From Seison nebaliae (taxonomy: Eukaryota; Rotifera; Pararotatoria; Seisonacea; Seisonidae), in contig JALJEE010002335.1 of assembly GCA_023231475.1 (NCBI GenBank), forward strand, positions 46,741 to 110,740: 64,000 nt of DNA, written 5' to 3'. Every line of letters starts with the position of its first letter. The stretch's first letter is position 1. Position numbers and translations under genes: made by a program. This document shows positions 21,668-61,980 of this stretch, in pieces. The notes under the pieces are model-generated. The model did not search any database. It was given only the letters and a program-made list of their open reading frames with translations, and was not told the DNA's origin.

Positions 21668-23963
21668 TCATTCGTCTGAATCAAGTGTATCATTTATTTT
21701 TGCCAATTCTAAATCTTTAGCTCTTTTTTGTTTTCGTTGATCCCACAACTTACCGTAATTCTTCGGTTTCTTACCTTTTTTCTTTTTCTCCAAATTTTTG
21801 CTACTTTTGAAGAGTGCACCCATCTTTAAGAAACCAGTTGATGCTTTTTCAGATGGTTTTGGATTATCATCTCCTGTCATCTTACCAGCTATATCTTCCA
21901 ATAGTTTTGTAGCGAGACCTTTCCTCATATTTTGCATGTAACTAACGTCTAATGGTTGAGTTGGTTCAGTAATATCAGTTTTAGAAATACCCAATATTAA
22001 ATAACTCAAAGAGGCGACAAAGCCATAACCGAGAAGAATGAGGTAAATTTTCCATGAATATGAAGATAGAATAGTGATTTGTAAAGATAATGATACTATT
22101 GGAAATAGAATACTGGAAAGTGGATTTGTGAATGTGATTCTTTCTTTAGGACATTGATTTAATACGTACGGGGCTGATAATGATACGGAGAATAAACCCA
22201 ATATTACTATTATGACGAAAAAACCAATTCTAAATGGAATTTGCAACATGTAGACACTTCTCATGTAAATGAATAACGATCCCATGTAAAGTACGAGAAT
22301 AAAACAGACAGCTAATTGTTTAATATCCACTAGATCAACGACTGAATCTAATGTATGTACAAGTATGGATTGGGATCTCGTCTTTCCACTTCCTAGTATA
22401 TTTCGATTATGATAATTCACATTTTTAGGTAAGAGATATGGATTAACGTGATTGTCGTGATAATGTTTCATGAAAATTCCTAAGTTTCTAGTACATTTCT
22501 TACATTCCAAGTGCATTTCATCCTCACTATATTCTGGACAATTGCATTCATATCGATAAATTATATTCCATTCATCTTTATTACTATTATTGTTATTGTT
22601 ATTATCATTATTTTTCGATCTGTTAGTTCCTGATCCACGATTTGTCTTATTTTCATTTCCATTACTTAAATCACAATATAATCTGAATAAATCTTTCCTA
22701 CTCATATTTCCTTTTGTTCCATAAACACATGGACAGGCTAATAATGGATGATGACGTAACAATGGAAAAATCATAGCAGTGAAACTGATAAACATGAAAA
22801 TGAATGTTAATATAAGACTAGCAAGTTGCATAAGAATATCAGATAAGAGTACTATGGAAGCTACAGAAGCCACTATCGATAAAATAAACAGGGAAACAGG
22901 TGGAATTGACATTGTTCCTGATGACAGTAATCGATAGTTCTTAAAAAGACCGTCTGCTGTTAAAATCATACCAAACAAATGTACAAATCTGAATGTTAAT
23001 AATATAATAAATATGTTGAATATTGCAGGTAGAGTAGACCAGATGATTAAGAGAGTTCTGTTGAACCTACCAAAAGTAGAAGGAAACATAGCGTATGATA
23101 CTACTTGTGTACCATACGAGTAGAAAACAGATACAACGGCTGGTATAATATAAAGGAGAATAGTGTATAGACAACAGATACAATATTCCGTTTCTATTTT
23201 TAAAGTTTCACATCGATTTAGTACAGAAATAAATATCGGATATGTTCCAAACGCGAAAAAAATTTTCTTAACCATTCCCAATACTCTTTCGTATTCTATA
23301 TGAAATATTGTATTCGGATGAATAATATGTTTATTCCGATGTCCCATTACCATTAGATTGATGCAATATCCAATAACCACTACCATATTAAGTAACGCTA
23401 AAATGGTTCGATTAATATGCTTGGAAATACCTGCACTGAGAGTCAAGACTAAAATCACCAATGTCGGCCAATAATCAAACGTCGAGGGAGCTAATTCATA
23501 TAATCCTGGAGTCATTATTGGTGCCAAACCAACTAACCAAAATATGTGATAAACACAACTCTGAGCAAATATGGCTACGATAAGTATAGTAACTAGTTTT
23601 GTCAATATTAATTGCAAATTAGAAAAATAACAAACTAACACCCTAAAATGAGGGATGCCATTAAATAAGAACTAAATACTCCGAAAACACGGAACATGAT
23701 TTGATGTACATTATGGTAACCGACCAACATCATTTTCAAATGTAAATATGTCACAAAACTTATGGATGATACAAGTCCTGAGAGTAGGAGAGCTAACCAT
23801 CCACTAAAACCTTAAATAATTATTAATTATATTTAATTATATAATGCATAAATAGATATTATAATCTAGTCAAACTGGCATTTTTACCTTGATCTAAAGC
23901 AACTCCTATAATTGTATAAACAGCCATTCCTGAAAACGGTATCAAATCAACCGAATCCCACAT
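21668..23963 (-). CDS. Divergent cationic-amino-acid-transporter-like membrane protein, tandem copy A
   Basis: Three exons (23963-23888, 23810-23640, 23592-21668) encode 723 residues with about 12-14 hydrophobic helices. The segment LTADGLFKNYRLLS and the helices after it resemble the MAEDGLLF loop region of SLC7A1-type CAT transporters, and the whole fold aligns with the transporter-like gene at 47598-52945. The first helix reads MAVYTIIGVAL instead of the glycine-rich GxGxxIGxGIY substrate-site motif of APC transporters, so substrate binding may be changed. A hydrophilic loop holds CNC and then a CxxC-x9-H-x4-H motif (from CKKC), conserved in copy B. The C terminus is Lys-rich. The amino acid transported, if any, is unknown. 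Membership of the CAT branch is inferred from pattern similarity, not a search. Confidence 0.75.
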
Positions 23964-25575: not shown

Positions 25576-27955
25576 TTATCTGGAACCAATTGTATCATCA
25601 TCGGAGGGAGCATATCTTGCCCTACTATTATGTGTCTCCCATAACTTATTAAGATTTGAAACTTCTTTAGATGCTTTTTTTCCTTTTTTTTTCAAAGGTA
25701 CTTTTTTCTTCTGTAATGGTATCTTCTTAGGTTTTTTTGGTTTTATTGGTATAATATCTTCTTTTTTGGAAGTTCCCATAAGATCTTCCCAAAGTTTTCT
25801 ATAAAAACTTTTCTTTACGTTTTCCAAATATTTTTCGTCAATTTGTAAATCAGTTTCCATGAGTGTTGTGTCTTTAATTCCAAATACAAAGAAACTTAGA
25901 ATGCCAAATAAACCATATCCTAATAGAATAAGAAAAATTTTCCATGTGTATGAAGATAGAATGGTGATTTGTAAAGATAATGCTATTATTGGAAATAGAA
26001 CACTAGATAGAGGATGCGACAATGTTATTCTTTCTTCTGGACATTGATTTAATACATATGGTGCTGATAATGATACGGAGAATAAACCCAGGACAACTAT
26101 AATTACAAAGAAACCAATTCTAAACGGAATCTTTAACATGTAGACACTTCTCATATAAATGAACAACGATCCCATATAAAGTACCAAAACAAAACAAACA
26201 GCTAATTGTTTAATATCCACTAGATCAACGACTGAATTCATGGTAGTCATCAACAGAGTTTCGGATTGCGTATAAGGATTGAGAATTGAATTTTTAAATA
26301 TACTTCTAATTGGACTTCTTATCGGACTTCTTATCGGACTTCCGTTCGCACTCTTCGTTGTAGCTTTTGTTGGAGTTTTTATTGAACTTTTTATTGGGCT
26401 TTTATTATGATAGTTAACGTTAGTTGGTAAGACGCTTCGGGAAGAGTGATTATAATAATAATGTTTTATGAAATCCCGCAAATTTTTAGTACATTTCTTG
26501 CATTCTAGATGAATTACATCGTCGTCATATTCTGAACAATTACATTGATATCGATAAATTATTATTTTCTGATGTTCTCTATTATTGTTGCTCTGGTTAA
26601 TGTTATGTTGAGCTATGTTAACTGGTGGCTTGACTGGGTTTGTTGAAAATATATTCTTTTTTTTCTTTTTCCCATAATTCAAATCACAATATAACTGATA
26701 TAATTCTCCATCAGTCATCTTACCCTTTTTCCGATAAACACATGGACAAGCTAATAATGGATGTTGTCGTAATAATGGAAATATCATCGTCGTATAACTG
26801 ATCAGCAGGAATATAAGTACTAGAATTGCACTTGCTAATTGCATAATAACTTGAGGTAGAAAAACTATTGATGAGATGGATGCCATTATCGATATAAGTA
26901 ATAATGAAAGTGATGGAATTAACATTGATCCCGGTGAGACTAAACGATAATTTTTAAAAAGACCATCTGTTGTCAATCCCATTCCAATAAGATGTACAAT
27001 TCTAAATGTGATTAAGATGATGAAAACGTTGAATAATGCCGGTAGGAAAGACCAGACCATTATGAGATTCTTACTGAGTTTTCCAAAACTCGAAGGGAAC
27101 ATAGCATATGCCATGATTTTTCTCCTACAAGAATAAAAAATAGCGATAATGGCTGGTATAATATACAGGAGAATGGTATATATACAACTAATGCAATATT
27201 CTGTTTCTAATTTCAAAACTTCACATCGATTGAGTAAAGACATGAATATCGGATAAATTCCGAAAGCGAAAAAAATTCGATTAACTAATTCTAATGTTCG
27301 TTCATATTCTATATGGAACACCGTATTCTTGGTCGAACAATGTCTGTTACGATATCTGACTAGTGTTATGTTGAGACAATAACCGATCACTACCAATAAG
27401 TTAAGTAGCGCCATTACCGTTCGATTGATATGTTTCGAGATTCCAGAACAAAAATTTAAGACCATAATCACGAAAGTCGCCCAATAATCAAAAATTTCGG
27501 GAGATAGTTCATAAAATCTTGAATTTATTGGTGGTGCCAAATCGACAAAAAAATAGATATGGTACACGAAACTTTGAGCAAATATCGCTATAACAAGACT
27601 CGAAACTAATTAAATAAAAATTACTTGTAAATCAATTAAATAATATGCTAACATACAATAATGAATGAAGTAACTAAATATGATACGAAGATGCCATATG
27701 TGCGATACATAATTTGATGTAGATTATGATATCCCATCAACATAACTTTCAAATGTAAATATGTGACGAAACTGAAAGACGATACGACCGCAGCTAACAA
27801 GAGTGCCAATAACCCAGTGAAACCTTTGAGAATTAATAATAATAAAACTTTTTTTAAAAAGGCAAACTGCCTCCTTTCGTCTCATCCAAGACTAATCCCA
27901 AAATGCTGTAAACGGCCATCCCCGAAAATGGTACTAAGTTAATGGAATCCCACAT
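25576..27955 (-). CDS. Divergent cationic-amino-acid-transporter-like membrane protein, tandem copy B
   Basis: Three exons (27955-27868, 27823-27653, 27605-25576) encode 762 residues. Exon boundaries and phases match copy A, and long blocks are nearly identical (for example DLVDIKQLAVCF and FRIGFFVIIV), so the pair arose by tandem duplication. The first-helix sequence is MAVYSILGLVL, again without the APC glycine motif. The loop motif CKKC-x9-H-x4-H is retained after CNC. Copy B has a private insert made of a repeated SPIR unit (four in a row) and KTPTKATTK before the conserved DLVDIKQLA helix, and a Lys-rich tail. As for copy A, the substrate is unknown. Confidence 0.75.
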
Positions 27956-28872: not shown

Positions 28873-31800
28873 TTAATTATCAAAAGATTGTTCTAATATC
28901 CTACTAATGTTTACAGGTAACTCGGAGGTAGTTCTACAGACAAACGCACGATCTGACGGTAATTTTTGTTTCAAACTTTAAAAAAAAAGAAGAATTACAA
29001 GAAAATAAAAAAATATAAACTGATTAGCTTCGTCTCCCAAAGATCCAATGAATATAGCATAACTAGATAAATTGACTTCATCTTTATGTTTATATGTGGA
29101 TAATAATTCCCCAAAATTATCTACATTAATTCCATAACGACGAAAATTGGCATCAGATAGAATGATAATAAATGCTTCATCGAATTTATCATCTTTCGCT
29201 TCCAATAATTTTTTAATATTCTCTTGTTTGTTTTTCAAGCACGACACAGTATTATCACCGGCAAAACAAAATTGTGAATGAGCAATCATCATCTAGAAAA
29301 ATATTTGTCTAACTAATTGATGAAAAAGAAATAATAAACTTTTAATATGTCAATCTTCTGTTTCGCATTTTTTGGTGGATAATGAACTTTGACAAATTCA
29401 ATTGCATCATCTTCCCCAGAATGTCCAATAATCTCATAAACGATATCATCACGTCCTTCTGCCATTTCTATCAACATTAGGGCAGCCTCTAATTCTAATT
29501 GTAATCGACCATCATAACGAGCAAATCGATACATTGATCCACTCACATCAACCAATAATGAAATTAATTTTGGTCTGATTTTTGGAATTCCATCTTCCGG
29601 CTTGATTAATTCTCTTCTCTTATAAATATTCTTTTCGCCTAACATCGCTTCAACAATTTTAGTTTCATCCATTTCACTTCCTGTACTTTTCCCTCGAATC
29701 CATTGTCTTTCATTTCTTCGAGATTTTAAATTATCAAGTGCATTTCTTAATAATTCAACTTCATGATTAACTGCATTTCGATAACTGGTATAAGTACTAG
29801 CATCATATTCTGACATTTTTATTTCTTCTAATCTATTTAGAAAAATATAAAATAAGATCAAATGAATGAAAAAGAAACTTTTTCTTGAAAACTTCTCGAT
29901 TCATTTCTCGCGCTTTCTTCAAAATTTCTTCTGGTACATTTTGTTTTATTTCGTCTGAAACTTGATGAATGTCATGACCACCATCCAAACGATATGGTCC
30001 TCCAACACCACCTAAACCAGCTGTATCTCGTCCACCTGAACCACCGGCCCACGTATTCCCTCCAACATGTGGTTCATTATTCGGATCGACTTTTCCATGT
30101 TTCGGTCCTCCTAATTCTCCAAATAATCGATCAAGACGATTTCTTTCTAAAGAATTCTCTTCATTTAATCGAACAGAAATATTCAAATTATTCTTCATAT
30201 TTTTCATTTTATTCCAAGACGACAATTGATCATAAGATGGAAATTCAATACCATTCTCTTCAAATTTTTTCGCAATTATTTCATAGATGGAAGTATTATG
30301 TACATCGAAATCGAAGACATTATTCAACGCCTCATATATCGCTGCCATTTCCATTTCCTTATCATTTGAATTCTTATAATAGAATTCATTCAAATGTTTG
30401 ATAACGGCAGTTAATTCTCTCGTTGAATATGGATATTTCAATTCGTCATTATTCACTAATTCTCTTAAAGAATTGAAAGATAAAATTAATTTTTTCACAA
30501 TCTCTTCCGGTACATGTTTCCCATATTGTTGCACTAATTCATATTCGGACTCAAAATCTGGATTATCGATTGCATAGCAATTAAATAGATCTCCCATTTG
30601 AGAATAGAAATCATTTCCTAAAAATGGAAATCCTGGTCGATTTGCTAAGACGATACAGCGGAAATCTTTATGGATTTTAATTACATTTTCATTACCCTCC
30701 AAATGATTTGGCACATGTTTTTTCAACAACCTTCCATCAGATAATCTCATTTGTCCTAAAATAAATTTTCTAAAAAATTTAGAAAAATAAAAAAAAAAAC
30801 CGGAATCAAATAGAGATCGAAGAACGACAGTAACATGTAAAGATGCTTTATCTGCTTCATCGATTAAAAGAATAAGACCATTCTTTATAGCAGTAATTAA
30901 TGGAGAATCAATAATATTGATCTTACCATCAATAATACTAATTTGTGATGATAATGAATGGATTGTTGTATCTCTATAAAATAAATTGAATTAATATGAT
31001 AAATTAAATGAATTTAAAATTAAATAAATTAAATAATAAAACCGATGAAGTTGAATATATTCTCTTGGTAATTCCAATTCTTGAAGTAATTTATCTGCCA
31101 ACTTATTCTTTCCAACACCTTGATTTCCGATGAGACAAATATGATTTCCATTTCTCAAATCACTTTTCATCAATTCTAACAATTGACGATGACGACGATT
31201 CTCATGGAAGACGATATTTGGGATCTTTCCCAAATTTTCACGAGACTTATTTGTCTTTTCAACTTTTTTTCCATTTTTACGATTCTTCTGAAACATTTCA
31301 TCGAAATGGAAATCCTTCTCAATCGGAATAATTCGATTTAATAAATTGTTAAAATTATTCCTCGTAACAGTTGGGAGGAAACGATGTAACATCGAATTTT
31401 TGACAACAAAATGAATAAGAGAATTAGCAACGTCATTATTGATAGAAAATGATGCCAGATTCTCCTGAATATTTAACATTTGTCGCAATGAATAAGTCAA
31501 TTGTCGAAGATGGTTATTTGTCGAATCTTCCAATTCTTTGCGAATTGATAAAAGTTTATCAATAATTTCCTTATTTTTTCCATCATTATTCAATAGAATT
31601 TCACGAAATTCTGTTTCTTTTAATTCATCCAATTTCAAATTAATCCAACCCATTGACACCGTATCATTATTCAACCAATTTTGCTGTTTAGTTCCATTTT
31701 CACTAATGGCAATAATTCGAAATTGTTCATGACAACGATAAATATGTCGTTTTCCATCAAAAATTTTATCAATAATATTTTCTTGTTTATTATTGAAGAA

Positions 31801-33591
31801 ATGATCGAACGATTTGGCGGATAAAATTCGATCACCATTAGGCAATTGATATTCTCGATCTTGAACTAATCTTTATAATTTTAAATAAGAAACAATTTAA
31901 AGAACATTTTTTAAAGCAACAAAAAATAATACCGTTGTAATGCGAATAATGTATGTGGATGTAATCGATGAATTCCATCCAAAATGGTGACTTTTCCATC
32001 GATCATCGCTTGTAATAATTGGGAAATTTTCCATTCAGTATTTCCATTTTCTTCGTTTGTTATACGATTTATCATCAATTCGTTTAACGTCAAATCTTGA
32101 TATAACGGAATAATTTCATGATTATCAATTTGTTTCAAATCTTTCAAAAAAGTTTCGACGAGAAAAGTTTTTCCACTTCCTCTCTCTCCAATTAGACAAA
32201 TATCTGATCCACTTTCAAAAATTCCGTTTAATTGAAATAATGTCTTCTCTTGAGAATCCACTAATTTCTTATGAGGAATTTTTGATTTAATATTTGTTGG
32301 ATTGAATGATAAATTATATTCTTTCACAATCAATGATAACGTTTCTGAAATTTTATCATCTTTTGTTTGAAGGAGATTGATGGGATAAATCGAATTAAAA
32401 ATAAAATCTCTTAAATTTTCTTTCTTATCTTCACATTTATCTAATAATCTTCCATAAATTTCTATTGCTGGTTTTATTAAATTTTCTGGGAAATAAAGTT
32501 TATGTCTCTCCTTTATAATTCCCAAATCGTCTGATTTACTTCCGTTATTAATGGCAAATGCGACAGATGTTAAATCATTTGAAAATTGTTTAACTAATTT
32601 CATTTGTTTCTCATTCTTTTCCTTAACGGTTTCTTCTATGAAGTTTGTTGAAATTGAATAATTGAAATCTTCATCATTCTGTAAAAACTTTCCTTGAAAA
32701 CGTGAACGGAAAGGTGGATCGATCGATTTACCATTAATTCCGAATTTGAAAGGAATTATCGACCTTTCCACACTATTAACACCATATGGTGTTCCCAAAA
32801 CTATACAACGGAAATTGGAATGAATTGGAATTAATTTCGATACATTAATATCTTCTTTTCCATATTTCTTATTGAAAAAGAATAAATAAAATATCGAAAG
32901 AGATTTATGAAAATGAATAAACTTCCAATAAATTTCTATATTTATTTTCATTAATTAATAATGATCCATCTTCTAATTGCATTTCACGATTCTCTAATAA
33001 ATTATTAATAATGGGAAGAACATTTCGTTCGGCATTCTCAACAGCATCAATAACTAATAATCGTCCATTCTTCACTGCTTCCACCACAATCTGATCAATA
33101 AATTTCACATTTCTTTCTTTCATTTCTCGACGTTGCTTCAAATCGCTTTCACTCGTATCTCTCGTCGTACAAATGTATTCGATCTCTCGATTAAATAATT
33201 CCTAAAAATTTCTTATGGACCAAAAAGAAAAAATGGCAAACCGAATAAATGAATGGTAGATGTCGTTTCCTTGGAGTTACTGGACCGACGAGAAACATGT
33301 CCTGCTCTAATTTGTCTTTTTGTATCATCCATTTCAAATCTCTCAATAAACTTTGTGGAATATTTCCTCCAACCGCATAACGGTTCCCTTTTAATATAAA
33401 TAAAATTTATTTAGTTCCATGAAGAATGTGTAACAATATCCGATAGGGATAAGATGCTTCCATTCCGATTTGCTATTCGTTTCATGACTTATGCCATCAA
33501 TCGTGATAGTTGACGATTTATATCTTTTCAATTGTATCTGTTTCATATGTTGTCGAAAGGTTTGACATCGTTGAAAATACATCGATGACAT
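28873..33591 (-). CDS. VWA8: VWA8 orthologue (mitochondrial AAA+ ATPase with VWA domain), compact form
   Basis: Ten exons (33591-33435, 33387-33242, 33201-32923, 32867-31933, 31870-31043, 30973-30801, 30755-29879, 29832-29340, 29292-29021, 28975-28873) with introns of 40-69 nt encode 1,420 residues in consistent phase. Three AAA modules are visible. The first has a degenerate P-loop (FLVGPVTPRKR), the second Walker A GERGSGKT (about 417), the third GNQGVGKNK (about 755) with LVLANRPGFPFLGNDF-like sequence downstream. Then come PKHGKVDPNN and GGNTWAGGSGGRDTAG, which are hallmark VWA8 motifs, and a C-terminal VWA domain with MIDAS LVDVSGSM (about 1226). The N terminus is basic and free of acids for about 30 residues, consistent with mitochondrial import. 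Human VWA8 is about 1,905 residues; the missing part is the central region between NVFDFD and PKHGK. Confidence 0.93.
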
Positions 33592-42600: not shown

Positions 42601-43181
42601 AGGAAGAAAGAGATAAGTTTCTAATGACGACATTTGGAGAAATTGGAGGACACAACATTAGAATTCATTAAACAAACAATTGTTTAATTGAAGTAGGACA
42701 AAATAGATCTTCGTCTATAAATCGGTTCCTTGGCAAGATAGAATGATGGAAGTGATCTGATTAGACCATGTACGTGTATGTCAAAATAGATATATGCATG
42801 ATAAGTAGATAATCATGAGGAGGAGAATGTCGCTCCTCTCAAATTAGTTACATTTCAAATGATTTATGCTAACATTCATTGGAACTTTATTCTTTCCTTT
42901 CAATTGCTTCTTCTACCGAATGTTTCTATTTGTTTCAGATGCCATTCTTCCTTCTTCTTCTACTTAACAGATAATCGAAAGAAACGTAAAATTGTCAGTA
43001 CTGTTATAAATTGATTAAAGAATATGATACATTTCTACTCTCTGCTATGAAGCGATACAGTCGTTTGTTATTACGAGATATAAGTGTAATCGATCTAAAA
43101 CGATCTCTTGAAGAAGACGAATAATTTTGTGGCACCCTCAAAATTAAAATTTAAGTTTTCTACAACAATCATTAAACCATT
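39629..43181. other. 3.5-kb interval with no supported gene
   Basis: AT-rich, with only short frames. The longest are 102 codons at 41028-41336 (+) and 97 codons at 41913-42206 (-). Neither shows a signal peptide, domain or homology I recognise. It includes the SLC5A7 promoter region at its right end. Confidence 0.4.
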
Positions 43182-45200
43182 ATGGTTCTCCATTGGGGTG
43201 GAATCATTTCTATCGTCGTCTTTTATGTCTTGATACTTGCTGTGGGCATATGGGCTGGACGGAAGTCAAAAGGTGCCACCGAAGAAGAAGTGATGCTAGC
43301 TGGCAGGAATATCGGTCTATTCGTCGGAATGTTCACAATGACCGCCACATGGGTAGGTGGTGGATATATTAATGGTACGGCAGAAATTGTCTATAGTCGA
43401 GGCGTCGTGTGGTGTCAAGGACCTTTCGGTTATGCATTATCGTTAATTCTTGGCGGTTTCCTGTTTGCAAAGAAGATGAGAGCTGAAGGATATGTGACGA
43501 TGTTGGATCCTTTACAAAAGAAATTTGGAGAGCGTATGGGTGGATTATTATTTCTACCAGCTCTTTTTGGAGAAGTCTGTTGGTCAGCTGCTATTCTTGC
43601 TGCTCTCGGTTCAACGTTGAGTGTAATTCTTGAGATTAATAACACTTTGAGTATTATCATATCCGCTTGTATCGCCATCTTTTACACATTGTTTGGTGGA
43701 TTATATGCTGTGGCTTATACTGATGTTGCACAATTAGGATGTATCTTTGTTGGATTGTGGTTGGCCGTTCCATTTGCTTTGAAGCATCAACATGTAGCAC
43801 CTATAGGAACAACCATGACGAAATGGATTGGATCAATTAAATATAAATGTACTTGGAAATATATAGACGATATGCTTATGTTAATTTTTGGTGGTATTCC
43901 ATGGCAAGTTTATTTTCAACGAGTTCTCTCATCCGAAAGTGCAACGAAAGCAATGTATCTTTCATACGCTGCAGCTTTCGGCTGTTTTATCATGGCCATA
44001 CCTTCTGTATTAATCGGAGCCGCTGCAAGATCGGCAGGTCATTGATTTCCTTTTTTTCAAATTTTTCAACGATGAAATCTTTTCTAGATTGGAACAGTAC
44101 GGGGTATACCGGTGTGGTACCAATACCAGAAGAGAATGAAAAATTAATATTACCACTCGTTCTTCAATATTTAACTCCGGATTTCGTTTCATGGATTGGT
44201 TTAGGTGCAATTTCAGCCGCAGTTATGTCAAGTGCAGATTCGTCAGTTTTATCTGCTTCCAGTATGTATGCTCGAAATGTATGGAAATTAGTTATTCATC
44301 AGAAAGTTAGGCTATATAATTTAACAACAACAAATATTTTATTTTTAGGCAGGTGATCGCGAAATTGTTTGGGTGATGAGAATCGGCATTTTTATTGTTG
44401 GCATTGCAGCAACAATAATGGCTGTGATGGTTGAAAGTATTTACTCTTTATGGACCTTGTGTGCCGATTTAGTGTACGTCATATTATTTCCTCAACTCTT
44501 ATTAGTAGTTCATTGGCAGAAAGCAAATACATATGGCTCATTAGCCAGTTACGTTTTAGGTTTAACATTTCGTTTATTGGTCGGTGAGCCAGTGGTTCGT
44601 TTACCTGCCAGTATTCGTTTTCCTGGTTATGATGTACTGAAGATGACACAAGCTTGGCCATATAAATCGATGTCTATGATATTTTCTTTATCAATATTAA
44701 TCTCTGTTTCGTTATTGACGGATTACTTATTCATCAATCGTAAGATCAATAGTAAATATGACATATTTCATTGTCTTGTAAATATTCCAGTTGAATCAAT
44801 ACCTCTACGTTCGCCCACATTATACTCGACTCAGAACATTAATGCAATTGCTCCCAACATGGATTTGCGGGATGACGTACAGAAAGTGCTAGAAGAAGCT
44901 CACGATACATTTGTTTCGTCTCCCGAAAAAACAACTTCGATCACTAAAATTGAAAGACGAAAAAGTAAGGATTTGAAGAAGAAAATTCAGAGCAACATAC
45001 CAATTTTAACGGAAGAAGAGATTCGGAATGCCAGTCTCAAACGACGAGTGAAGAAATCAAGTGTTGGAGATTCATCTGGATCTGATGATGAAGCCATGAA
45101 ACGAATTAAAATTAATTTAAGTTCCATTACTTCTACCCCAGTGAAAGAGGTGATTGAAGAAGATGAAAAAGAGAAGGAAGTCATATCATCTCGTTTATGA
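43182..45200 (+). CDS. SLC5A7: High-affinity choline transporter (SLC5A7/CHT1)
   Basis: Three exons (43182-44037, 44088-44305, 44349-45200) with introns of 50 and 43 nt encode 641 residues, slightly longer than human CHT1 (580). It is a sodium-coupled transporter with about 13 membrane helices that takes up choline for acetylcholine synthesis at cholinergic nerve endings. Family-specific stretches include [55 protein letters not shown] and [18 protein letters not shown]. The C-terminal cytoplasmic tail is charged and Ser-rich. Its presence indicates a cholinergic nervous system. The pseudouridine gene starts only 195 bp downstream on the same strand. Confidence 0.95.
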
Positions 45201-45395
45201 TGTGAGAAAATTGAACTTTGACTCTATTGGGACTACTTTAGTCACTAGATAGTTAATTTACGAATTCTTATTTATTTTGTACTTTTCCCGTTATATCATC
45301 TTATCTTGTGTGTTTTTATTTATCTAAAAGTTTTTTTTATTCTTTTCCGTCTCTTTTCATTTTGCCAATATAATAAAGTCTCAAAATATATTGCA

Positions 45396-47519
45396 ATGAA
45401 ACTCTCCATTTCATCATTTACAAGACACATATCTAAACTATTTAAACTTGCACCGGAAGTCTCTGAAGCACTTAATAAAAATCGACCGATTGTTGCATTG
45501 GAAAGTACAATTATTACACATGGCATGCCATTCCCTTACAATTTAGTGTTAGCAGAGAAGGTTGAAAAAATTTTGAAAATTAACAATGTAGTTCCTGCCA
45601 CAATTTCAATATATAATGGTAGAATACATTGCGGATTAACAACTGAAACAATTCAACGCATTTCAGACGATGAAACAAAATTAGTGAAAGTTAATTGTAG
45701 TGACATTCCAATATTTCTAGAGAAATCAAAACATTCCAATATTTTAGGTGGAACTACTGTAAGTTCAACATTAGCAATTGCCAAAGAGTTGGGCATTAAC
45801 ATCTTTGCCACAGGTGGAATTGGAGGAATACATCAAGAAAATGCTACAGACATAAGTGCTGATATATATCAATTGCGGCAATCCAATAAAATGATTCTCA
45901 TTTGTAGTGGAGTCAAATCGATTTTGAATGTAAATTCTACATTAGAATTTTTTGAAAGTTTAGGGATTCCTCTCATGTTATGGCGCAATGAGGAAGAATT
46001 AATCGAATTATTTGATGGAAGATTCGAAGTTAAAAATAATCCTGCAAATCTTTCCAACGAATTCTTTCCCACATTCTATTCCAGAGAGAATGGTGAAAAT
46101 TTAAAAATTTCAAATTTCATTAAAGATGAAAATGAATTTCAATCCATTTACAATAATTTCACTAATGCCAACAGCGGAATTTTATTAGCCGTTCCAATTC
46201 CCACTCAACATGAATTGAACTTCAATTTAATTAACGAATATACAAAAATTGCACAGGAGAAATTGAAAGAGAATAATATTTCGGGAAAAGCTGTGACGCC
46301 TTTCATTCTTAAACAATTACATAATTTATCCGAAGGTGTTACCGTCACAGCTAATCAAGCATTGTTAATAAATAATGTGTATGTGGCGGCGAAAGTGGCA
46401 AATAAATTGTATTCAAAATCAGATATTAAATATCCAAGAATGAAATTCAAAACACAAGAGAATTTCCATCCGAATAAATCTAGTAAAATTTTATGTATTG
46501 GAGCAGTTAATGTAGATTTAACAATTACAAAGCAAGATTCATCAATCGAATCACCCAATTCAACTACTCCATCAAACATCGACATTTCCGTTGGAGGTGT
46601 TGCACGAAATTTAGCTGCCGCTTTCTCATTAATTTCAAATGAATCTTATGATACTCAATTTATTTCGATAATTGGAGATGATTTATTCGGCAGTCATATC
46701 ATAAACGATTTCCAAAAGAATTTTCCTAATTTAGATATCTCTCTTATGTTAAGGAGTAATGATAAGGATTATCATACATCAACGTTTACACTTTTGCAAT
46801 CAACTGATCGACAACCAATTGCAGTATATGGAGATATGAAAATTCATCAAGAATTATTTCCAAAATTGTTTAAACATGAATCATTGTTGTTAGAGAATGT
46901 GAAGAATGCAAATTTAATCTGTTTCGATTTGAATTTATCAAAAGAAATTTTTGATCTCATTATCCGTATTGGAAAGGAAACACAAACGAAAATTTGTATT
47001 GAACCAACCACCATTGCTAAATTGGATATTTTACGTAATTGTAAGCTGGAGAAACCTTATTTGTCATATATTGATTTCATCACACCAAATCGATATGAGT
47101 TACATGAACTTGTAATTATGTTTTGTGACGGAGAACTTTTTAATCAAATTGAAATTTCCTCAGAGTTTCAAGGAATCGAAGAAGTGGTTAAAGATGCGAT
47201 GAATTTACAAACAATTTTTCCTAATTTAAATTTAATTGTATCGTGTGATAAGGATGGCGCTTTCATCTTACCAGCAAATAACGATAATATTGTTGACAAA
47301 TTGAAGGAAATAAGATATGTGAGAAACGATAAGATTGATTTGATAACTAGTGTGAATGGAGCAGGTGATTGTTTAAAAGCAACAGTTCTAGCCAACTGGT
47401 TATTTAATAGAGAAGATAACTTTTATAAAATTCTGAAAAAAGGATTAACTGCAGCCAAAATTTCTATGAGTGAAATAACAACAGTATCAAGTCAGTTGAA
47501 AAAACTTCATTTGAAATAA
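45396..47519 (+). CDS. Bifunctional pseudouridine-5'-phosphate glycosidase / PfkB-family pseudouridine kinase
   Basis: One exon encodes 707 residues from the ATG at 45396; an upstream in-frame ATG at 45306 would add 30 mostly hydrophobic residues. The N-terminal half (about 20-325) is a PsuG/IndA domain, with VALESTIITHGMP, a GGTTVSST loop, ATGGIGGIH, and ILLAVPIP. The C-terminal half (about 350-705) is a PfkB carbohydrate kinase, with the entry motif ISVGGVARNLAAA and the catalytic anion-hole motif NGAGDC near the end. Together the domains phosphorylate pseudouridine and split it to uracil and ribose-5-phosphate, recycling modified RNA nucleosides; this two-domain arrangement is known in several eukaryotes. 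The absence of introns is notable beside its intron-rich neighbours. Its stop codon is 78 bp from that of the convergent transporter gene. Confidence 0.92.
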   Translation: MKLSISSFTRHISKLFKLAPEVSEALNKNRPIVALESTIITHGMPFPYNLVLAEKVEKILKINNVVPATISIYNGRIHCGLTTETIQRISDDETKLVKVNCSDIPIFLEKSKHSNILGGTTVSSTLAIAKELGINIFATGGIGGIHQENATDISADIYQLRQSNKMILICSGVKSILNVNSTLEFFESLGIPLMLWRNEEELIELFDGRFEVKNNPANLSNEFFPTFYSRENGENLKISNFIKDENEFQSIYNNFTNANSGILLAVPIPTQHELNFNLINEYTKIAQEKLKENNISGKAVTPFILKQLHNLSEGVTVTANQALLINNVYVAAKVANKLYSKSDIKYPRMKFKTQENFHPNKSSKILCIGAVNVDLTITKQDSSIESPNSTTPSNIDISVGGVARNLAAAFSLISNESYDTQFISIIGDDLFGSHIINDFQKNFPNLDISLMLRSNDKDYHTSTFTLLQSTDRQPIAVYGDMKIHQELFPKLFKHESLLLENVKNANLICFDLNLSKEIFDLIIRIGKETQTKICIEPTTIAKLDILRNCKLEKPYLSYIDFITPNRYELHELVIMFCDGELFNQIEISSEFQGIEEVVKDAMNLQTIFPNLNLIVSCDKDGAFILPANNDNIVDKLKEIRYVRNDKIDLITSVNGAGDCLKATVLANWLFNREDNFYKILKKGLTAAKISMSEITTVSSQLKKLHLK

Positions 47520-47597: not shown

Positions 47598-50500
47598 TTA
47601 ATGTCTTGATCTTCCTCTCCCAGTTGCTATTTGTTGGTTTCTCCTTTTTTTCGGCATATGATGGGTTCGATTGGTACCATGCTTCTTTGTTGATGGACTA
47701 ATAGATGGAGAATCTTTCCTCTTATGTTTCTTACCCATGACTTTTGCACGCTTTTCATCACGCCTTGAATGCGTATGACCTTTATGATGAGATGCCACCA
47801 TTTTAATCGGTCTGTTTCGATCATTTCCCTTTTTTATCTGATCTAATGTATAGTATGAATAATAGGAATAAGCCTCTTTGGCGAAATTTGGTTTTACTTT
47901 AACTTGAGTCGGACTTGATCTTTTATTGGTTCGAATGAAACCGTTATTTCCAACAATTACTTTTTTGGCATGAATAGGATCAATGCTATCTATTTTACCT
48001 ATATATTTCGTTTGAGAAAATGGATTTTCATCTTTAATTTGTCTAGCTTTATTTATAGTATTCGCTTTGTGGAACTTAGATTTGTTAGATGCATTCGGAT
48101 CACCATGATCAGAGTCAGCTTTATCTGAATAAATACTTGTTACGTCATATTCATAACCATAGTCATTGTATGATTGAACGTCCTGTAGAATTTCTCTTTT
48201 TAATGGTTGCTTCTTTTGAATGCCATTTGAGCCGATCGTCGTCAAATAATTTGTAGATGATTTAGGTGATCTTGGAAGTCGAATTCGTTCGGTATGAGTC
48301 GGTAGTGATTTTCTCTTTTTGACTGCTTCTTCCTCCAATACAGCTTCAGCAACCGCATGTTTAAAGAATGGAACGGTTGTATCTCGATCTCTAAATTGTC
48401 TTTGAGTTTTTGTTTGAGAAAGTCGTGGTGCTACTTGTGGAGTCCCTTCGAATTCATGACCCATCTTACCAACATGACGAGTCTCATATTTCTGATCTTT
48501 TGGATTTGCAAATGCCACACTTCTAGTAGGAGTTTTGGTTCGCTTCACACTTTCTATCAGTTCATTTGATGAAATGACAGTGGCAGGCTTATGTAAATTT
48601 GGATTTGAACCATCGATTTGTCTTAATCTTCGTGGAATTGTTCTAGACTTACTGAATGCGGTTTCGTGTTCCAATTGTGCATCCATATCGATTTCTTCTT
48701 TAGCAGCAACTATTAAATCAAAATCTTGATTTCTACCTGTAGCTCGTTTTGATGTTTTTGTAGGAGTTCTAGTTCGTCTAACAGTTTCAAAGAAATCTAA
48801 AGAAGATTTGAGGACCGCTGGTCGTTGAGTTTGTCGCGCCTCTGTCCCTTTAACAGATGATCTTATACGATACTCATTCGGTTGAGCAGTCTCAAATAAT
48901 TCGACGGACGATTTGACTACTATCGGTTTCTGCGTTTCCTGCATTAGTTGACCACGCATCGCAGGTTGCGTCGAGTAATCTTTAGGCTTAACGGTTTCCA
49001 ATAACTCCAAAGAAACATTAACTGGTATAATTTCCTGAATATTCGTGTTGGACTCTTCCATTTCTCGTACTTTTCTTTTCGACATTTTGGTGCTGGTAAA
49101 TGGGGAAACATGTTCCAATTTTTGATCCATCTCAATTTCTTGCTTTGCTACGTGAGCAGTCTCCATATCTTGAATTCTACTTGAAGCCCTTGGAACAGTT
49201 TTGGTACGCTGAATTTTCGTTCGACCTGTAGTATCTAATGGTTCTATTGAACTATTAGTTGGAATGGGAGCATGATAATTTACCATATTAGTTGGACTGT
49301 CTATTTCTCGTAACCTTCTCGGTGAAAGTTTACGACGAGGCAAAGGTGTTTCTTTTTCTAATCTCTGATCAAGTTCTAATCCTTCTTTAGCTATATGAGT
49401 TGTTTCGACATTTTGAACTTCCATTGATGCCTTCTTTTCAGATGGCATTTGTTGTTTATTACGTTCCACTGTTTCCACCATTTCTAATTCACTATTAGTG
49501 GGAACTGGACCATGAAAGTTTCCTTCTTCATTAGTACCATCTATTTCTCTTAATTGTCTCGGTTTTATGTTCTTCCCAGGAGGCAGAGGTTTCTCATGTT
49601 CGAATGGTGGATCTATGGAAAGTCCTTCTTTGGCGACATGTGTTATTTCTGCATTTTGTATGCTACTCGAAGCTCTAGGTATTGGACGGGGCATTGGTTT
49701 AGTTCTTTCGGCTGCTTCAAAAACCTCAACCGAACTATTTATTGGAATAGCTTCATGAACATTTTCCCTTTCATCATCTAATTGTCGCACTCTTTCAGGA
49801 ACGACGTTCGACTTCTTTAAACGACCTTGACTTTCTAGTCGTCTGTCAAGATCAAAACCTTCTTTAGCTGCATGTTGAAGTTGTAAATTTTGTGTTTTAC
49901 TCTTCGCTTTACTCGTTGACACTTTAGGTGTTCCCATTGCTTCCACCGCTTCTAATTCGTTACCTGGTCCCATAAAATAAGCACGTTCTAAATTCGATTT
50001 ACCCTCCTTAATTTCAGCATGTTTTTTCAAAAATTCTGTGGTTAAACGGCCGATCATTTCATTTCTTTCCCGATCACCAATAGAACCATTTGATTCCAAT
50101 TTTCCATGATTCAAATATGCTTTTGTATTCTTTGTATAATCATCATTGGCTGTGCTAGAATAAATATCAGATTTCCTCATATCCGTATATGTTTTGATAC
50201 TGGAACCATACGTCTTAACATCGGATGGATTAACTAGATCTCCACTCGTCTGATAACTATCTGCCTCTTGTGCATGTGTCGCATATGGACTACTCTTAAA
50301 AGTGGAAACATCAGTTTGATTATCATTCTGACCATATTGTGTCTCATACGCATATTTCATATTTGGCGGCGCATAACGAAATTTAACATAATCGTCAATT
50401 GGCTCTTCACTCTCATTCATTGTTTTCACTGTATATGATTTTGGTTGATATGATGAGTTATATTGGTCGACTGTTGGTAACAAATAATATCCAGTTTCCT

Positions 50501-52945
50501 CACCACAAGCACCACCAACATGATCGTTAGCCGATTTCTTACCCTTATCTTTACCTTTTCCTTTACCCTTATCTTTACCCTTTCCTTTGCCCTTTCCCTT
50601 ACCCTTATTTTTTCCCTTATCTTTTTTCTTTAGATTCGATTTCGGATTCTTTGACGAACTTCTCCTCTGGTCACTCTTTTTACTTTTCCTATTTGATTCT
50701 TCCGCTTTCTGATCGTGGGCGGTAACTCTCTTTCTAAGCGGCCGTTTCCTTCCTTTCGATTTCTGAGATTGTATCTTCAAATTTAAATATTATACAAATA
50801 AAATGTTCTTTATAATTATGAATACTAACACTTCCCTCGTATGGCTTGCATGGAGTGGATCCATCTGAAAACAATTCCGAAAAGTTTCAAAAGAAGTAAA
50901 GATATTAAAGAACCTGTAAGTTTGTAGATAGTGTAGAATAAAAGGAATGTACCAAAATAAAGAACAACATTCACAATATGTATTTGACATAAAAGTAAAC
51001 TATTGGATATGATGGCTAATAGTGGTACTATCGGCATAATACCCAACGGTAGGACATGTGAGTGTTTTTCATTAACACATTCATATCTTATGTGAAGATA
51101 AATGAGAGCAACAATGACGATACTGCAAGATGTAGTGATGAATACAAAAACCATAATACCGATGAAAGACGATAAAATATTATAAATATGATGTACCAAT
51201 GCAATAATAAATATTAATATAACAATTGCAGTTATAACGGCTGTCTCCAAAGGACTTTTTCTTACGAAACAATTGCCTACTGTATCAGACGGTGGAATAT
51301 CGAATAATTCCGCCTGAATTGTTTCTTCGAAATGACAAGCTGCATTTCTAGATGTAATAGAACTCAAGTACCTGTTACGTTTCTCATCAATAACCGCCTT
51401 ACTCGTATTATTATTATTATTATTATTCAAATTATTATTATAATTCATATTATTCCCACTTTTATTAACTTTTTTGGGAGCGGACTTCGATTTCGATTTA
51501 TCCGTTTTTTTATTAGGAGATTTTTTGGCGTCGGATTTCTTACTATTTTTCCCACCCTTCTTATATTGTTCCTCTCCTAAAGTGTAGTTTGTGGACGTAC
51601 TTCCACTTTTAGTACGCCCACTTTTAGAACTTTTACCGCCGGAAGAAGAATAATAAGTACTTCTTCTGCTGCTACTCCCCCGTTCATCATATTCACAAAG
51701 ACATGCTTGAGGCGGATTTCGTTCATTCAATCTTATGATAATAGTTCCAACAGAAACTAAAATCCCAACGAACAATGAGTGAATAACAACGAACGCTATT
51801 AATCGTCGATAATCGATAAACATTGAAAATACGGTTAATAAAACTGCGTAAAAGGTGAAAGGTGCCGCTTCGAAATATTGTTCGAAAGGTCCAACTGCCT
51901 GAAATGGAAATCTTAACACATCTAAAGTGTTATGAATATTAATCAAATGTTTTTGCCATGTAATATATTGGATACATCCGAAAAGGAATGTAAAGAGAGG
52001 TAACAAACAACCAAATATACGCAACTTCGCAATTTCATCGTTGAAAAGATAAAGCCATGCAAATGGAACTATATCATCATTAACCATCCAAGGAGATAGA
52101 ACCAACAGACCACCCACGGCAAATGTAAAAATTATTGTACCAACAAACAAAGTTATCATAATTGCCGACATAATTGTTCTGCGATTGACTCGAACGACTC
52201 TAGGTGAAAGAAGAATGATATCGAATCCAACATAAGCCATCACAGCGAGAGTGGAACCTTCCAATAATGTGTTAATCGAATATGGGATTTGTGAAGTTTT
52301 AAATTCTGTCCTATACTCTGAATAAAAATAACACATAAAAGTAAGAAATATAATGATGAGGAGGTCGACTCCCACCATTACCGAATGGAAATAATCCATT
52401 ACTCTCATATGGACACATGCATAAGGAATGATAATCATTAAAAAGAAGATTGAATACCAATTCAGAGGAACTTGGAAGATGAAAAGATATTTATGTGCTG
52501 TCGCTTGATTATGTTCATTCATCTGATTCCGATAATTACCGTGATTCGCTTCGTCACAATAGAAGATAAACGCATGGACAAATATGGCGGTTATGATTGT
52601 CATTGTCAATTGAATGAGTGTGGACATTGTCAATCCCATGACTCGACCATACATTGCACGAATGATGGTGGAAGAACCTCCGTATGGTGTAGCAAACGCG
52701 AAATATTCTAAGTAACATAATGCCGTCAGAAACATACAGATAGCAGCTAGTATGTAACAGAGATACGTCATAGGACCTACAATTATATTAATGAATTATA
52801 TTATAGAATAATTTAGGGAACCAGAATATTCAATGATGGCCAATCCACTATTAATGTAGACACCGGTGCCAATCATCGAGCCAACTCCTACCGATGTCAA
52901 ACGTACAGCTGAACATGGGTAAAATGGAGAACTTAATATCCCCAT
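47598..52945 (-). CDS. Giant CAT-like amino-acid transporter with a roughly 1,060-residue repetitive cytoplasmic tail
   Basis: Four exons (52945-52822, 52776-50914, 50864-50830, 50774-47598) give 1,732 residues. The N-terminal 674 form an APC-superfamily transporter. Helix 1 retains VGVGSMIGTGVYINSGLA, and later segments LAVMAYVGFDII and KAAPFTFYAVLL-like sequence recall SLC7 CAT proteins. The protein aligns with the two transporter copies at 21.7-28 kb. The tail starts with basic and KGKG repeats and then holds about six units of roughly 75 residues. Each unit has an HVAKE-x4-D-x2-LE-like core, PRRLREID, a PIPxNSS stretch, and ET-x2-RTK. The large last exon has no ATG for about 120 codons and its 5' edge lies 55 nt from exon 3, with a 35-nt exon keeping the phase. 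That is why I join it to the transporter instead of calling a separate gene. The alternative is a 692-residue transporter ending at 50825. Confidence 0.72.
47900..49980 (-). repeat. Degenerate protein repeats of the transporter tail
   Basis: The coding strand repeats a module of about 75 codons, with HAAKEG, HVAKEG, HIAKEG, HVAKQE, VAAKEE and HVGKMG marking successive copies. Seven or eight NSS/KSS-x-E-x3-ET boxes occur because one section (about 48780-49020) repeats only half of the unit. Confidence 0.65.
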
Positions 52946-56410: not shown

Positions 56411-58063
56411 TTATTTCCACATTAAATGATTCAATAAACACTTAGGATTTGCATTCAATATTGTCAAACTTAAAGACTTTTTAAAATAATTCATTAAAGT
56501 TTTCTTCGATGATTCTCCAAATATTATTACCTAAATATAGTATTATGTGTAATAAAATGAAGTAAATAGAAATATACCTTCCATTGAAACTCTTCAAAAT
56601 TTTCATATAATAATTTGAATTGGCTCATAAACGTATCGATATTGGAAGACGAAAAGAAAACCATGATGGAACGATTCCAATTGTTTATTTTTTTAATTTC
56701 ATTTATCAAATTCGGATTTGGAATAGTTTCATACGCTGTAAACTTCTCCACTTCAACTAAAAAAAATAATTTTTCGTTTAAAAACATTCTAAAAAACTGT
56801 TCGGATTCAACTGTGTTCGAAATTCATCATTAGCCAATTGACTGGATGGATAGAGTAGTTTATAATTTTTTCCTCGTAATGCTAAGAAAATAAGAATGGT
56901 GAAATATTAAATAAAAAAACTTGAATTAATTTTCTTGATCAAATCGTCTCTACAACTACAGTCAAATCCAAAAACTAAATCTCTGTCGATTTCTTTTAAT
57001 TGATCGACTAAATCAGAAAGAATGATAAAAAACTAAAAAAGAAAAAACGCTAACGGACATATTCACCAGTAATTGATGAAACCACAAAACAGAATTTATT
57101 CTTCAAATTAACATTTTTCGCGGACTTCAAACAATCAACCGATCGTTTACTTGTGAAAATAAATCCATTCATTTCCTCCATCTTTCATAAGATAAATCAT
57201 TAAAATTACTCAAATTATTTGTAAAAAATGAGAATTGAAACTTTGAGAAATCTCTCTTCTATTTCATGTACGAGATATCGAAATTCGATTGTCTCAATCG
57301 ATCCACTATTGACAAAATGGAAATTTTTTAAAAGTGACAAATATTCGTCATTTCCGTTAAGTGATGATTTGATGAGATAAATTGGAGTATCGATTCGAAT
57401 ATAATAATGTAAGAGAGTGGAAGTTGAGCCACTAACACCTCCAAAAGTAAATTTATTTGTATTCTTTAATTTTGTTAGGAAATGGAAACGATCCGTTTCT
57501 GCGAATATTTTCGATAATTCATTCGCTGTCCAATTGAGTGATGCAATGATGAATTGATATTTAAAATATGAATTAGTTATTCTTTTAATGAAAGTTACAT
57601 AATGTTTAATCAATTCTTTTTTCGATGAAATCGCATCAAATGTTCCCATATCGATTAAAAGCAAATTTGTATATCGATGAGAATCGATGAAACTGTCAAT
57701 ACTTTCATCAGATGTCACATCTACAACATTTAGTTGGATATTTGAATTACAATTGATTCGTGCTTTATCTATCGCCTTCTGACAATAATCTATTCCAATT
57801 ATCTCAATTGTCTTATTCATTCTCTTATTCATTTCATGAATAAGAGAACAAAACTGACCTTCTCCACATCCAATATCGATTATTGTCAAATCATTCGAAC
57901 ATTCTTCTATGATTCCACCAACACAATTCTTCAATTCATCAACTACATCACTTTCGAACCAATGATTCAATTCGTCATTATTAGACCCAATGAACTGTTC
58001 CGTATAAACTTCATCCCAATAAGTCTTATCAGCTAATCCTGTATATTGCCACTCATCCCCCAT
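56411..58063 (-). CDS. Fusion of EEF1AKMT2 (METTL10)-like methyltransferase and uroporphyrinogen-III synthase
   Basis: Six exons (58063-57242, 57181-57067, 57007-56921, 56881-56798, 56756-56578, 56530-56411) encode 468 residues. Residues 1-223 are a SAM methyltransferase of the EEF1AKMT2 type: TYWDEVYTEQF, motif I IIDIGCGEGQ (61-70), acidic D92 in IGIDYCQKAI, IDMGTFDAIS (137-146), SLNWTANEL and KFTFGGVSGS. That family methylates a lysine of elongation factor eEF1A. From about 225 the protein continues without a break into uroporphyrinogen-III synthase sequence: TPIYLIKSSL, NGFIFTSKRSVD, FCFVV, LLYPSSQL, EKFTAYETIPNP, IMVFFSSSNID and VIIFGESSKKTL. These parallel the order of human UROS motifs LLLKDA, GLIFTSPRAVE, VYVVGNAT, LLFPCGNL, VYQTV, ITFFSPSG and AAIGPTTARAL. 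UROS cyclises hydroxymethylbilane in haem synthesis. The joint lies inside exon 1, with no intervening stop or start. Confidence 0.85.
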
Positions 58064-59998: not shown

Positions 59999-60825
59999 CG
60001 TTTTAGAATTTTTTTAAATTTATTAAATCTGTTGATTGCCAAAGTTTGCTTGAGTTTGCGAAAATTATTCAATTTTCTTCCTTACCCAATATATGTTGCC
60101 GAGCTCAAGGAAATAGAATTATAAGTGCAAATAACTTTTTTGAATTGGCTGTTCTTTTTAGTTCCTCTCTAAAATTGGAAAAAATAAAATTAAATATAAC
60201 TCTATACAAAATTTTCCAAATAATTATATACACTTCTTACTCGTAGACAGTACTTGGAAAATAATTAAAAACAAATGTAGTTTGATACGTTGACGAAAAA
60301 TCCAATAATGATGTTCATTAAGGTTCCATTTTAGCTCTGACTATTGAGCAGAAAATGTTTTACTCATTTCCATTTTTCTTCCGCAATCGGTTGTTTGGGT
60401 CCTTTAGTCTTATGCGGATAATACGGTAATCAACAGCGAAAGAGCTATATTACAATTGTTAGTGTGAGAAGTGGTTTGTCTCAATTGTTTTGTTCAAAAA
60501 GCATCTAGAAATATTTGTTTTTTAGGCTGCCACAATGATAACACTGTACAACAAAAAAAAAGTAACGCAAAAATGAAACCTGTTTCTAGATCGGAATTTT
60601 CCTTAGATTACAAATATACTAACCAATTTTTTTGGGAGGTCGCAGTTTTTTCAGAAAAACCAATTTTCTAGTTCTGTGTTATATTTTTTTGAAATCGAAA
60701 ATTTTACCACTAATATTCAACCTTTTTCATTTATTTTTTATGGAGATTGTAGGAAATTAAAAGTAGTTTAGAAAATTGTTAATAAAGTATTATTTAAGTT
60801 TATAACAAGGTTAAGTATTTTAAGA
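59999..60825. other. AT-rich stretch without a supported gene
   Basis: Only short frames (66 codons at 60046-60246 and 60471-60671, +) without recognisable content. It lies between the secreted-protein pair and the broken retrotransposon. Confidence 0.4.
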
Positions 60826-61921
60826 TATAATCACGGACTCCTGAAATAATCTGGAAATGAGTGCTGGAGCAATCACCGTGAACAACACACCTAGTGGAAT
60901 TACAGGACAGATGAGCGAGAAATCTGAGGATGGGATATGGGACGAGTTGACGCACAAGGTAATCAAAAACATAAGAAACGTTAACGGAATCGAATGCCTT
61001 TGTAGCATCAAGAAAGAGAAGATGTAAAGATAGTTTCATTTCCTTGGCAATACTTATAGCCGAACGGAGAATGAGAAGGAGAGGATAGACGATCGATAAG
61101 CAAATTGGTAGGATGGCGAAAAGAGTACGTTCCGATATCGGATCAAAATGAGGTTCTCGAATACTTTCAGTAGGAACGAAGAAATGCAGATCGGTCTGTA
61201 TGAATTTAACGAGATTTGATCGATATTCGGTTTCTTCAGAATTGGAATTATTTTAAAGAGGAGTGAGATAGAGGAGAACTGATAATGAGAAAGAATCAGA
61301 TTTAAGGAATCAGTAAGGCCGGTTACGAGTGATGGAAATAAGTGTTGCACAAATTTAATGCAAACGTTATCGAAACCGTGAGCCTTAGTACCTTCGAGAG
61401 CCTGGATAGATTCGAAAATGTCTTGAGGAGTGAAAAAATCGAAATGGACATTGCCGATATGGCAGACGTGGGGTATAATGGAGGTGCGGTACATATAGTA
61501 GTCGAAGTATTCCGCGAAGGAGTTGGCAGAAATAGAAGATGTCGATGAGTTGGGGGAAGCGATTGGTTATTAATTTCCAAATGTTCGAAGGACGTGAAGA
61601 AAGACAAGCATTACGGAGCCTGCCGTGAAAATGGTCCCTGACACACTTTCTCACGGCTCTGCGAAACAACTTCCGAGATCTTAGATGATGTTCGTGGTTG
61701 AGAGAAGAAGGATTTTCGCGGAAGGTTTTCCAGCAACCGGAAGCTCGACGCTTAAGATGGGAAATAGAAGAAAAATTGGAAATAGGAGGACGAGAAAATT
61801 GTTGACGATGGGAAAAAGTGGTAGATGAACATTGGGGAATAAAGAGTAACTGCTCAGTAGGGGAGAGAGTAGTGTTCATAAACGTAGGGGAAGCATTAAA
61901 AATAATTACTTGCTGGCGCAT
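60826..61921 (-). mobile_element. Degenerate non-LTR retrotransposon (jockey/R1-like) reverse-transcriptase fragment
   Basis: Read on the minus strand, three frames in succession carry parts of a non-LTR ORF2. First comes a Ser/Arg-rich linker ending near LRNACLSSRPSNIWKLI (61921-61560). Then a frame with EGTKAHGFDNVCIKF, IIPILKKPN and SLNSYRPICISSFLLKVFE (61494-61054), matching the finger region of LINE reverse transcriptases. Then LLFLDATKAFDSVN, the catalytic aspartate box A, and ISGVR (61039-60830). Frameshifts near 61560 and 61050 break it, and the sequence ends before the YxDD box, so it is dead and 3'-truncated. It is described only as a remnant. Confidence 0.75.
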
Positions 61922-61980
61922 GAGAGAGGGGGTTTACAATAGTCCTTGCAGGTAATGTTACGTGGGGTGGTATTTGGAGA

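Follow-up and report, generated by a model that had tools for sequence, protein, structure and literature searches.

The window studied here is a stretch of 64,000 nucleotides of DNA from Seison nebaliae, a very small rotifer living in the sea, and covers positions 46741-110740 of contig C36 (assembly GCA_023231475.1). It contains a gene of the minus strand whose six exons, once spliced, encode an uninterrupted protein. Its N-terminal half resembles the eEF1A-lysine methyltransferases of the EEF1AKMT2/Efm4 family and its C-terminal half resembles uroporphyrinogen-III synthase (UROS). The coordinates proposed for the gene in an earlier note on this DNA were correct (Table 1). In the database, it corresponds to SNEBB_005195 (P0001), a 472-aa 'hypothetical protein' of Seison nebaliae.

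Gene structure and surroundings

Aligned over 479 positions, our own six-exon splice model (479 residues) and SNEBB_005195 agree at 470 and differ only at intron 2. The 26-nt intron 2 of our model was discarded, as the UROS half scored 44.7 bits against the HEM4 profile with this intron and 48.8 bits with the 47-nt intron of the database protein. With SNEBB_005195 as reference, the protein thus counts 472 residues and not the 468 of the earlier note. The five introns measure 60, 47, 39, 41 and 47 nt, the value for intron 2 being taken from the database protein. The acceptor of intron 1, GAAAG, is unusual by the absence of a pyrimidine tract; the UROD gene of this assembly, however, likewise requires a comparable acceptor, AAAG. 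If intron 1 were retained, the frame of exon 1 would stay open for 8 codons beyond the predicted splice site, up to an in-frame TAA at 57217-57215.

Table 1. Features of the methyltransferase-UROS gene (window coordinates; residue numbers refer to the protein)
Feature	Position	Strand	Remarks
Whole gene	56411-58063	-	Six exons
Exon 1	57242..58063	-	822 nt, one open frame; ATG at 58063-58061; complete methyltransferase domain and first 51 UROS-assigned residues
EEF1AKMT2/Efm4-like methyltransferase half	57395..58063	-	Residues 1-223; extent from PF13847 and PDB alignments of the predicted model
SAM-binding motif I, IDIGCGEGQ	57854..57880	-	Residues 62-70; D63, G65, G67 and G69 invariant in a 3-sequence alignment
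DMGTFDAIS motif	57626..57652	-	Residues 138-146; D138 and G140-S146 identical in P0002 and P0003
Putative eEF1A-recognition hairpin, KFTFGGVSGS	57425..57454	-	Residues 204-213, with F205 and F207; assigned by likeness to Efm4/METTL10
UROS half	56411..57394	-	Residues ~224-472; HEM4 match at 264-445 of the 472-aa protein
Assigned UROS N-terminal stretch in exon 1	57242..57394	-	Residues 224-274; Met codon absent
Intron 1	57182..57241	-	60 nt, GTTTCA...GAAAG; same join in SNEBB_005195
Exon 2 (database model)	57055..57181	-	Begins ATG GAG GAA ATG; end deduced from SNEBB_005195
Intron 2 (database model)	57008..57054	-	47 nt; deduced from SNEBB_005195 and the sequence
Exon 3 (database model)	56921..57007	-	Deduced from our own splicing and SNEBB_005195
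Exon 4	56798..56881	-	Our own splice model
Exon 5	56578..56756	-	Our own splice model
Exon 6, including stop codon	56411..56530	-	Our own splice model

Elsewhere in the window, on the plus strand, a 756-residue open frame (45249-47519) carries an Indigoidine_A domain (5.8e-85), presumably of the pseudouridine-5'-phosphate glycosidase type, and a PfkB kinase domain (8.6e-21), and is a second two-enzyme gene; such Indigoidine_A-PfkB genes occur in other animals. It is preceded by an SSF-family symporter in pieces (43176-45200, plus strand; first piece 5.3e-17), which by eye is like a high-affinity choline transporter. On the minus strand, three large frames of multi-pass membrane proteins, amino-acid-transporter-like by eye, lie at 21668-23671, 25576-27609 and 50825-52795, the first two looking like tandem paralogues; a Pfam scan of the frames at 21668-23671 and 50825-52795 gave nothing above cut-off. 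The same strand holds several frames resembling midasin exons, with AAA and VWA parts (29313-32954), a 1063-residue basic frame with degenerate internal repeats (47598-50789), and overlapping frames that resemble remains of a LINE-type reverse transcriptase (60800-61933), all judged by eye. Neither tRNA genes nor Rfam families were found within the 64-kb window.

The two halves of the protein

The N-terminal half has a seven-beta-strand SAM methyltransferase domain, with a PF13847 (Methyltransf_31) match at residues 58-128 (3.5e-11, above the Pfam cut-off). It aligns with a chytrid protein-lysine methyltransferase (P0002) and a metagenomic protein (P0003) through motif I, DxGTFDAIS, NWT and FGG, the DxGTFDAIS and NWT columns being invariant among the three proteins. 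The UniRef name of P0002 reads 'Protein-lysine N-methylt', and its Efm4-like status is our own reading. According to the accessible text of the corresponding papers, METTL10 carries a PF13847 domain and is both nuclear and cytoplasmic (PMC4140779), and eEF1A is held by the phenylalanines of a hairpin, F210/F212 in yeast Efm4 and F218/F220 in human eEF1A-KMT2 (hairpin 217-226) (PMC10844748). These residues are paired here with F205/F207, so that the two-Phe hairpin is kept. The protein thus shares with EEF1AKMT2/METTL10 (Efm4/See1 in yeast) the PF13847 domain, motif I, the DxGTFDAIS motif and the F-x-F hairpin, and differs from it by a second enzyme placed right after the last methyltransferase strand; its activity is predicted. 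As a query against the genome, an Efm4-like protein matched the fusion locus at 4.1e-9, with a sole other match at 0.36. Searches with the methyltransferase half matched 2 of 119 candidates in the protein collection and, among PDB sequences, gave weak matches to methyltransferases and matches to unrelated chains, at best E 0.0029.

The C-terminal half is a very divergent UROS. The HemD check proposed in the earlier note gave a significant PF02602 (HEM4) match within residues 224-472 (6.2e-13, 48.8 bits for a cut-off of 27.5), and in the whole 479-aa model the same profile matches residues 264-452 (7.2e-11, above the Pfam cut-off), so that the identities given to both halves stand within one protein. 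The NCBIfam UROS model NF004593 matched at 2.3e-6, its 27.2 bits being far under its cut-off of 275. Aligned with human UROS, this half scores 93, for 31.6 ± 5.0 after shuffling (0/1000 shuffles as high), and keeps the order of the human motifs: FTS, VV...T, LL.P,.Y.T, FFS and G.SS, the last corresponding to GPTT. As the earlier note had claimed, the five later exons keep phase across their short introns and carry the UROS motifs in order. The likeness to UROS/HemD (PF02602) therefore lies in a HEM4 match over the cut-off across most of the domain and in the motif order of human UROS (1jr2); the differences lie in the strong divergence and in an N-terminal strand that apparently comes from the methyltransferase exon, with no start codon of its own there.

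With the UROS half as query, none of 2625 candidates in the protein collection matched at E <= 10, and the PDB sequence search did not find UROS and returned a single unrelated chain (E 0.28). The two structure predictions, of low quality (mean pLDDT of 50.7 for one and 46.9 for the other), were uninformative on a complete two-lobed UROS fold, and UROS was absent among the matches listed for them. HemD relatives collected for an alignment were set aside as too uniform, the best 80 of 453 confirmed stretches being enterobacterial by title except one labelled Chryseobacterium.

This divergence, together with a 23% identity to human UROS and the replacement of the human VGNAT and GPTT by VSSIT and GESS, speaks for a UROS half without enzymatic role, either decaying or turned to another use, that its partner carries along. 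However, the frame is kept across five introns and candidates exist for the remaining haem pathway. Furthermore, human T103, Y168, S197, T227 and T228, which we take to be important active-site hydroxyl and tyrosine residues, correspond here, in a pairing made by eye, to T312, Y382, S409, S440 and S441, so that the hydroxyl or aromatic character is kept at each position. We therefore regard the loss of enzymatic function as improbable.

The junction within exon 1

As the earlier note had described, a single frame runs from KFTFGGVSGS directly into UROS-assigned sequence inside exon 1. Methyltransferase and UROS-assigned sequence thus share the same exon and the same frame, with almost no linker. 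In 47 of the 50 PDB matches listed for the predicted methyltransferase model, the alignment stops at residues 221-228 (245-247 in the other three), and the first UROS strand is assigned to residues 228-232; the join therefore lies at the domain edges.

Where the UROS begins is the critical point. Methionine codons occur in exon 1 at residues 1, 78, 82 and 139 only, and none is in frame from residue 139 to the exon 2 splice. With a separate start at exon 2, the UROS would thus be about 50 residues short. Spliced leaders are used by rotifers, and the locus could in principle hold two cistrons: a methyltransferase with a tail of 59 residues that stops at TAA 57217-57215, and a UROS starting at ATG 57181 after trans-splicing at ...GAAAG|ATG. 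In keeping with this, exon 2 opens with an ATG immediately after the AG, the UROS core taken from this ATG alone keeps its HEM4 match (2.1e-11), and the UROS N-terminus proposed in exon 1 is weak by itself. Indeed, residues 224-274 alone did not align significantly with human UROS, either locally (24, for 21.6 ± 4.2 after shuffling; 5339/20000 shuffles reach 24) or with free end gaps (13, for 10.7 ± 5.0; 6000/20000 shuffles as good), and other parts of human UROS give this stretch a higher score.

Against two cistrons, a UROS started at exon 2 enters HEM4 at position 40 and is some 50 N-terminal residues short, the SNEBB_005195 model splices exon 1 to exon 2, and the methyltransferase would be left with a coding tail that lacks an explanation and to which nothing in P0002 or P0003 corresponds. 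The coding character of this tail is visible in its codon score, 0.139 bit per codon for residues 224-274 and 0.131 for the methyltransferase part, in which windows of 51 codons range from 0.063 to 0.229 (5th-95th percentile). Over the same stretch, scores are 0.01 and -0.07 in the other forward frames and 0.03-0.08 in the reverse frames, each of these five frames containing 1-5 stops; the continuation into intron 1 gives -0.13 over its 8 codons. The score of residues 224-274 was reached by 2 of 108 open 153-nt frames from presumed non-coding stretches, and the chance of 51 open codons by base composition alone is about 1.5%.

Placed in register before the core, the tail also improves the match to UROS. 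Residues 224-274 raise the HEM4 score from 43.9 to 48.8 bits (+4.9), which none of 8 shuffled tails did (43.6-45.8). The tail adds 14 units to the alignment of the core with human UROS, and 85 of 3000 shuffled tails do as well; under two other gap penalties, 77 and 61 of 3000 equal the real tail. When windows of the methyltransferase half were put before the UROS core instead, 3, 2 and 2 of 172 reached the real score under the respective penalties. The first strand and the FTS motif are also spaced much as in human UROS, at 228 and 280 in the fusion protein and at 3 and 58 in the human enzyme. Altogether, comparison at the sequence level gives modest support to a UROS N-terminus lying within exon 1, which would make the fusion obligatory, and we consider two separate cistrons unlikely.

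Proposed origin of the gene and its probable place in haem synthesis

We consider it likely that the locus holds a genuine two-domain gene, in which two once separate genes, for an EEF1AKMT2/Efm4-family methyltransferase and for UROS, were joined in frame. According to the accessible text of the Seison nebaliae genome paper, the genes are compact and the genome has probably been reduced (PMC8351084). In such a shrinking genome, a small deletion between neighbouring genes probably joined the end of the first domain to the start of the second. A join located inside an exon and not at an intron would fit exon shuffling less well than a deletion of what lay between two neighbouring genes.

A loss of DNA could also have arisen in the assembly, if a collapsed stretch had deleted what separates two genes. 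The gene is seen in a single assembly, and a Seison nebaliae draft was built from a two-strain pool according to the accessible text of PMC8351084. Nevertheless, a random loss is unlikely to keep both frames open and in phase and to cut at both domain edges. The same text gives a consensus quality of 46.8 for the strain-B draft, which may not be the assembly searched here (PMC8351084). Such an artefact thus appears exceedingly unlikely.

Candidates for the seven other haem enzymes were found elsewhere in the 36.0-Mb, 846-contig assembly that was searched: ALAD on C407, PBGD on C212, UROD on C555, CPOX on C29, FECH on C277, ALAS on C545 (matched in pieces, at 325.9 and 241 bits, both under the single-hit cut-off of 338.55) and a probable PPOX on C697 (also in pieces, at 83 and 34.1 bits, both under the cut-off of 97.85). 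The ALAS query matched three more contigs more weakly, which probably encode related aminotransferase-fold enzymes. GC content is 29-33% at the ALAS, ALAD, PBGD, UROD, CPOX and FECH loci and 29% at the fusion locus. The search for a separate UROS gene called for in the earlier note had a mixed outcome: with the fusion protein and the UROS half as queries, the fusion locus was the sole match in the genome, but HEM4 and human UROS matched nowhere, the fusion locus included, and these two queries are uninformative on a second UROS. Since the other seven enzymes have candidates elsewhere, the fusion gene is probably the UROS of Seison nebaliae.

Fusions of a methyltransferase with UROS exist in Bacteria, in which the methyltransferase of CobA(SUMT)-HemD works on the UROS product. 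While the two proteins have this combination in common, the CobA/SUMT methyltransferases belong, as we assume, to PF00590, a family other than that found here; PF00590 is absent from the 17 Pfam matches of the fusion protein at E <= 10, which sets it apart from the CobA-HemD type. The Indigoidine_A/PfkB bifunctional pseudouridine-degrading protein also carries two enzymes per chain, and one is encoded about 9 kb away in the window; its enzymes act in one pathway, whereas the methyltransferase and UROS do not.

The full-length fusion protein matched SNEBB_005195 itself and the chytrid methyltransferase among 7999 scored candidates of the protein collection; that the fusion is lacking elsewhere means little, because this collection yielded no UROS from another animal. 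No description of a METTL10/EEF1AKMT2-UROS fusion was found in the open-access papers searched, in agreement with the earlier note, which knew of none. An old synteny at human 10q26, raised in the earlier note as a possible explanation of how the two genes met, had no trace in these papers either. The terms 'heme', 'porphyr' and 'operon' are absent from the main text of the Seison nebaliae genome paper (PMC8351084), as are heme, haem, porphyr and fusion from the accessible part of a later rotifer paper (PMC12256650). By its sequence, the gene would thus be a composite of two known families, whose pairing we did not find described.

In the genuine two-domain gene that we favour, one transcript would give one cytosolic protein of 472 residues and 55 kDa, made of two tandem folded domains, each with an independent active site. 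The protein would be simply bifunctional: its N-terminal half would methylate the eEF1A lysine equivalent to yeast K316 and human K318, and its C-terminal half would close hydroxymethylbilane to uroporphyrinogen III. Step four of haem synthesis would then depend on the fusion protein, if the animal has, as we infer, no other UROS. The main consequence would be an obligatory 1:1 co-expression of both enzymes.

A stronger form of this explanation, compatible with it, is a Rosetta-stone fusion in which haem or tetrapyrrole would control eEF1A methylation, or translation status would control haem output. The whole of its evidence consists of the fusion itself, the near-zero linker and the key residues kept in both halves. 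Many gene fusions are neutral, the fusion is seen in one genome only, and no link between the two pathways was found in the accessible text of the papers examined. Such control is in our view very unlikely. We likewise give little credence to the full reading in which the fusion would be the only UROS of an animal, its two sites would communicate, and haem synthesis and translation-factor methylation would be co-regulated.

If expression follows the reading given here, an animal would produce one of its essential haem enzymes solely as the C-terminal part of a methyltransferase of a translation factor, and two housekeeping activities would be tied into one gene. The role of eEF1A K318 methylation is 'so far unknown' according to the accessible text of PMC10238732, and the protein could then offer a natural case for probing its purpose. 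Finally, under the same condition, the fusion might serve as a derived character of the Seisonidea, to which the Acanthocephala could perhaps be added.
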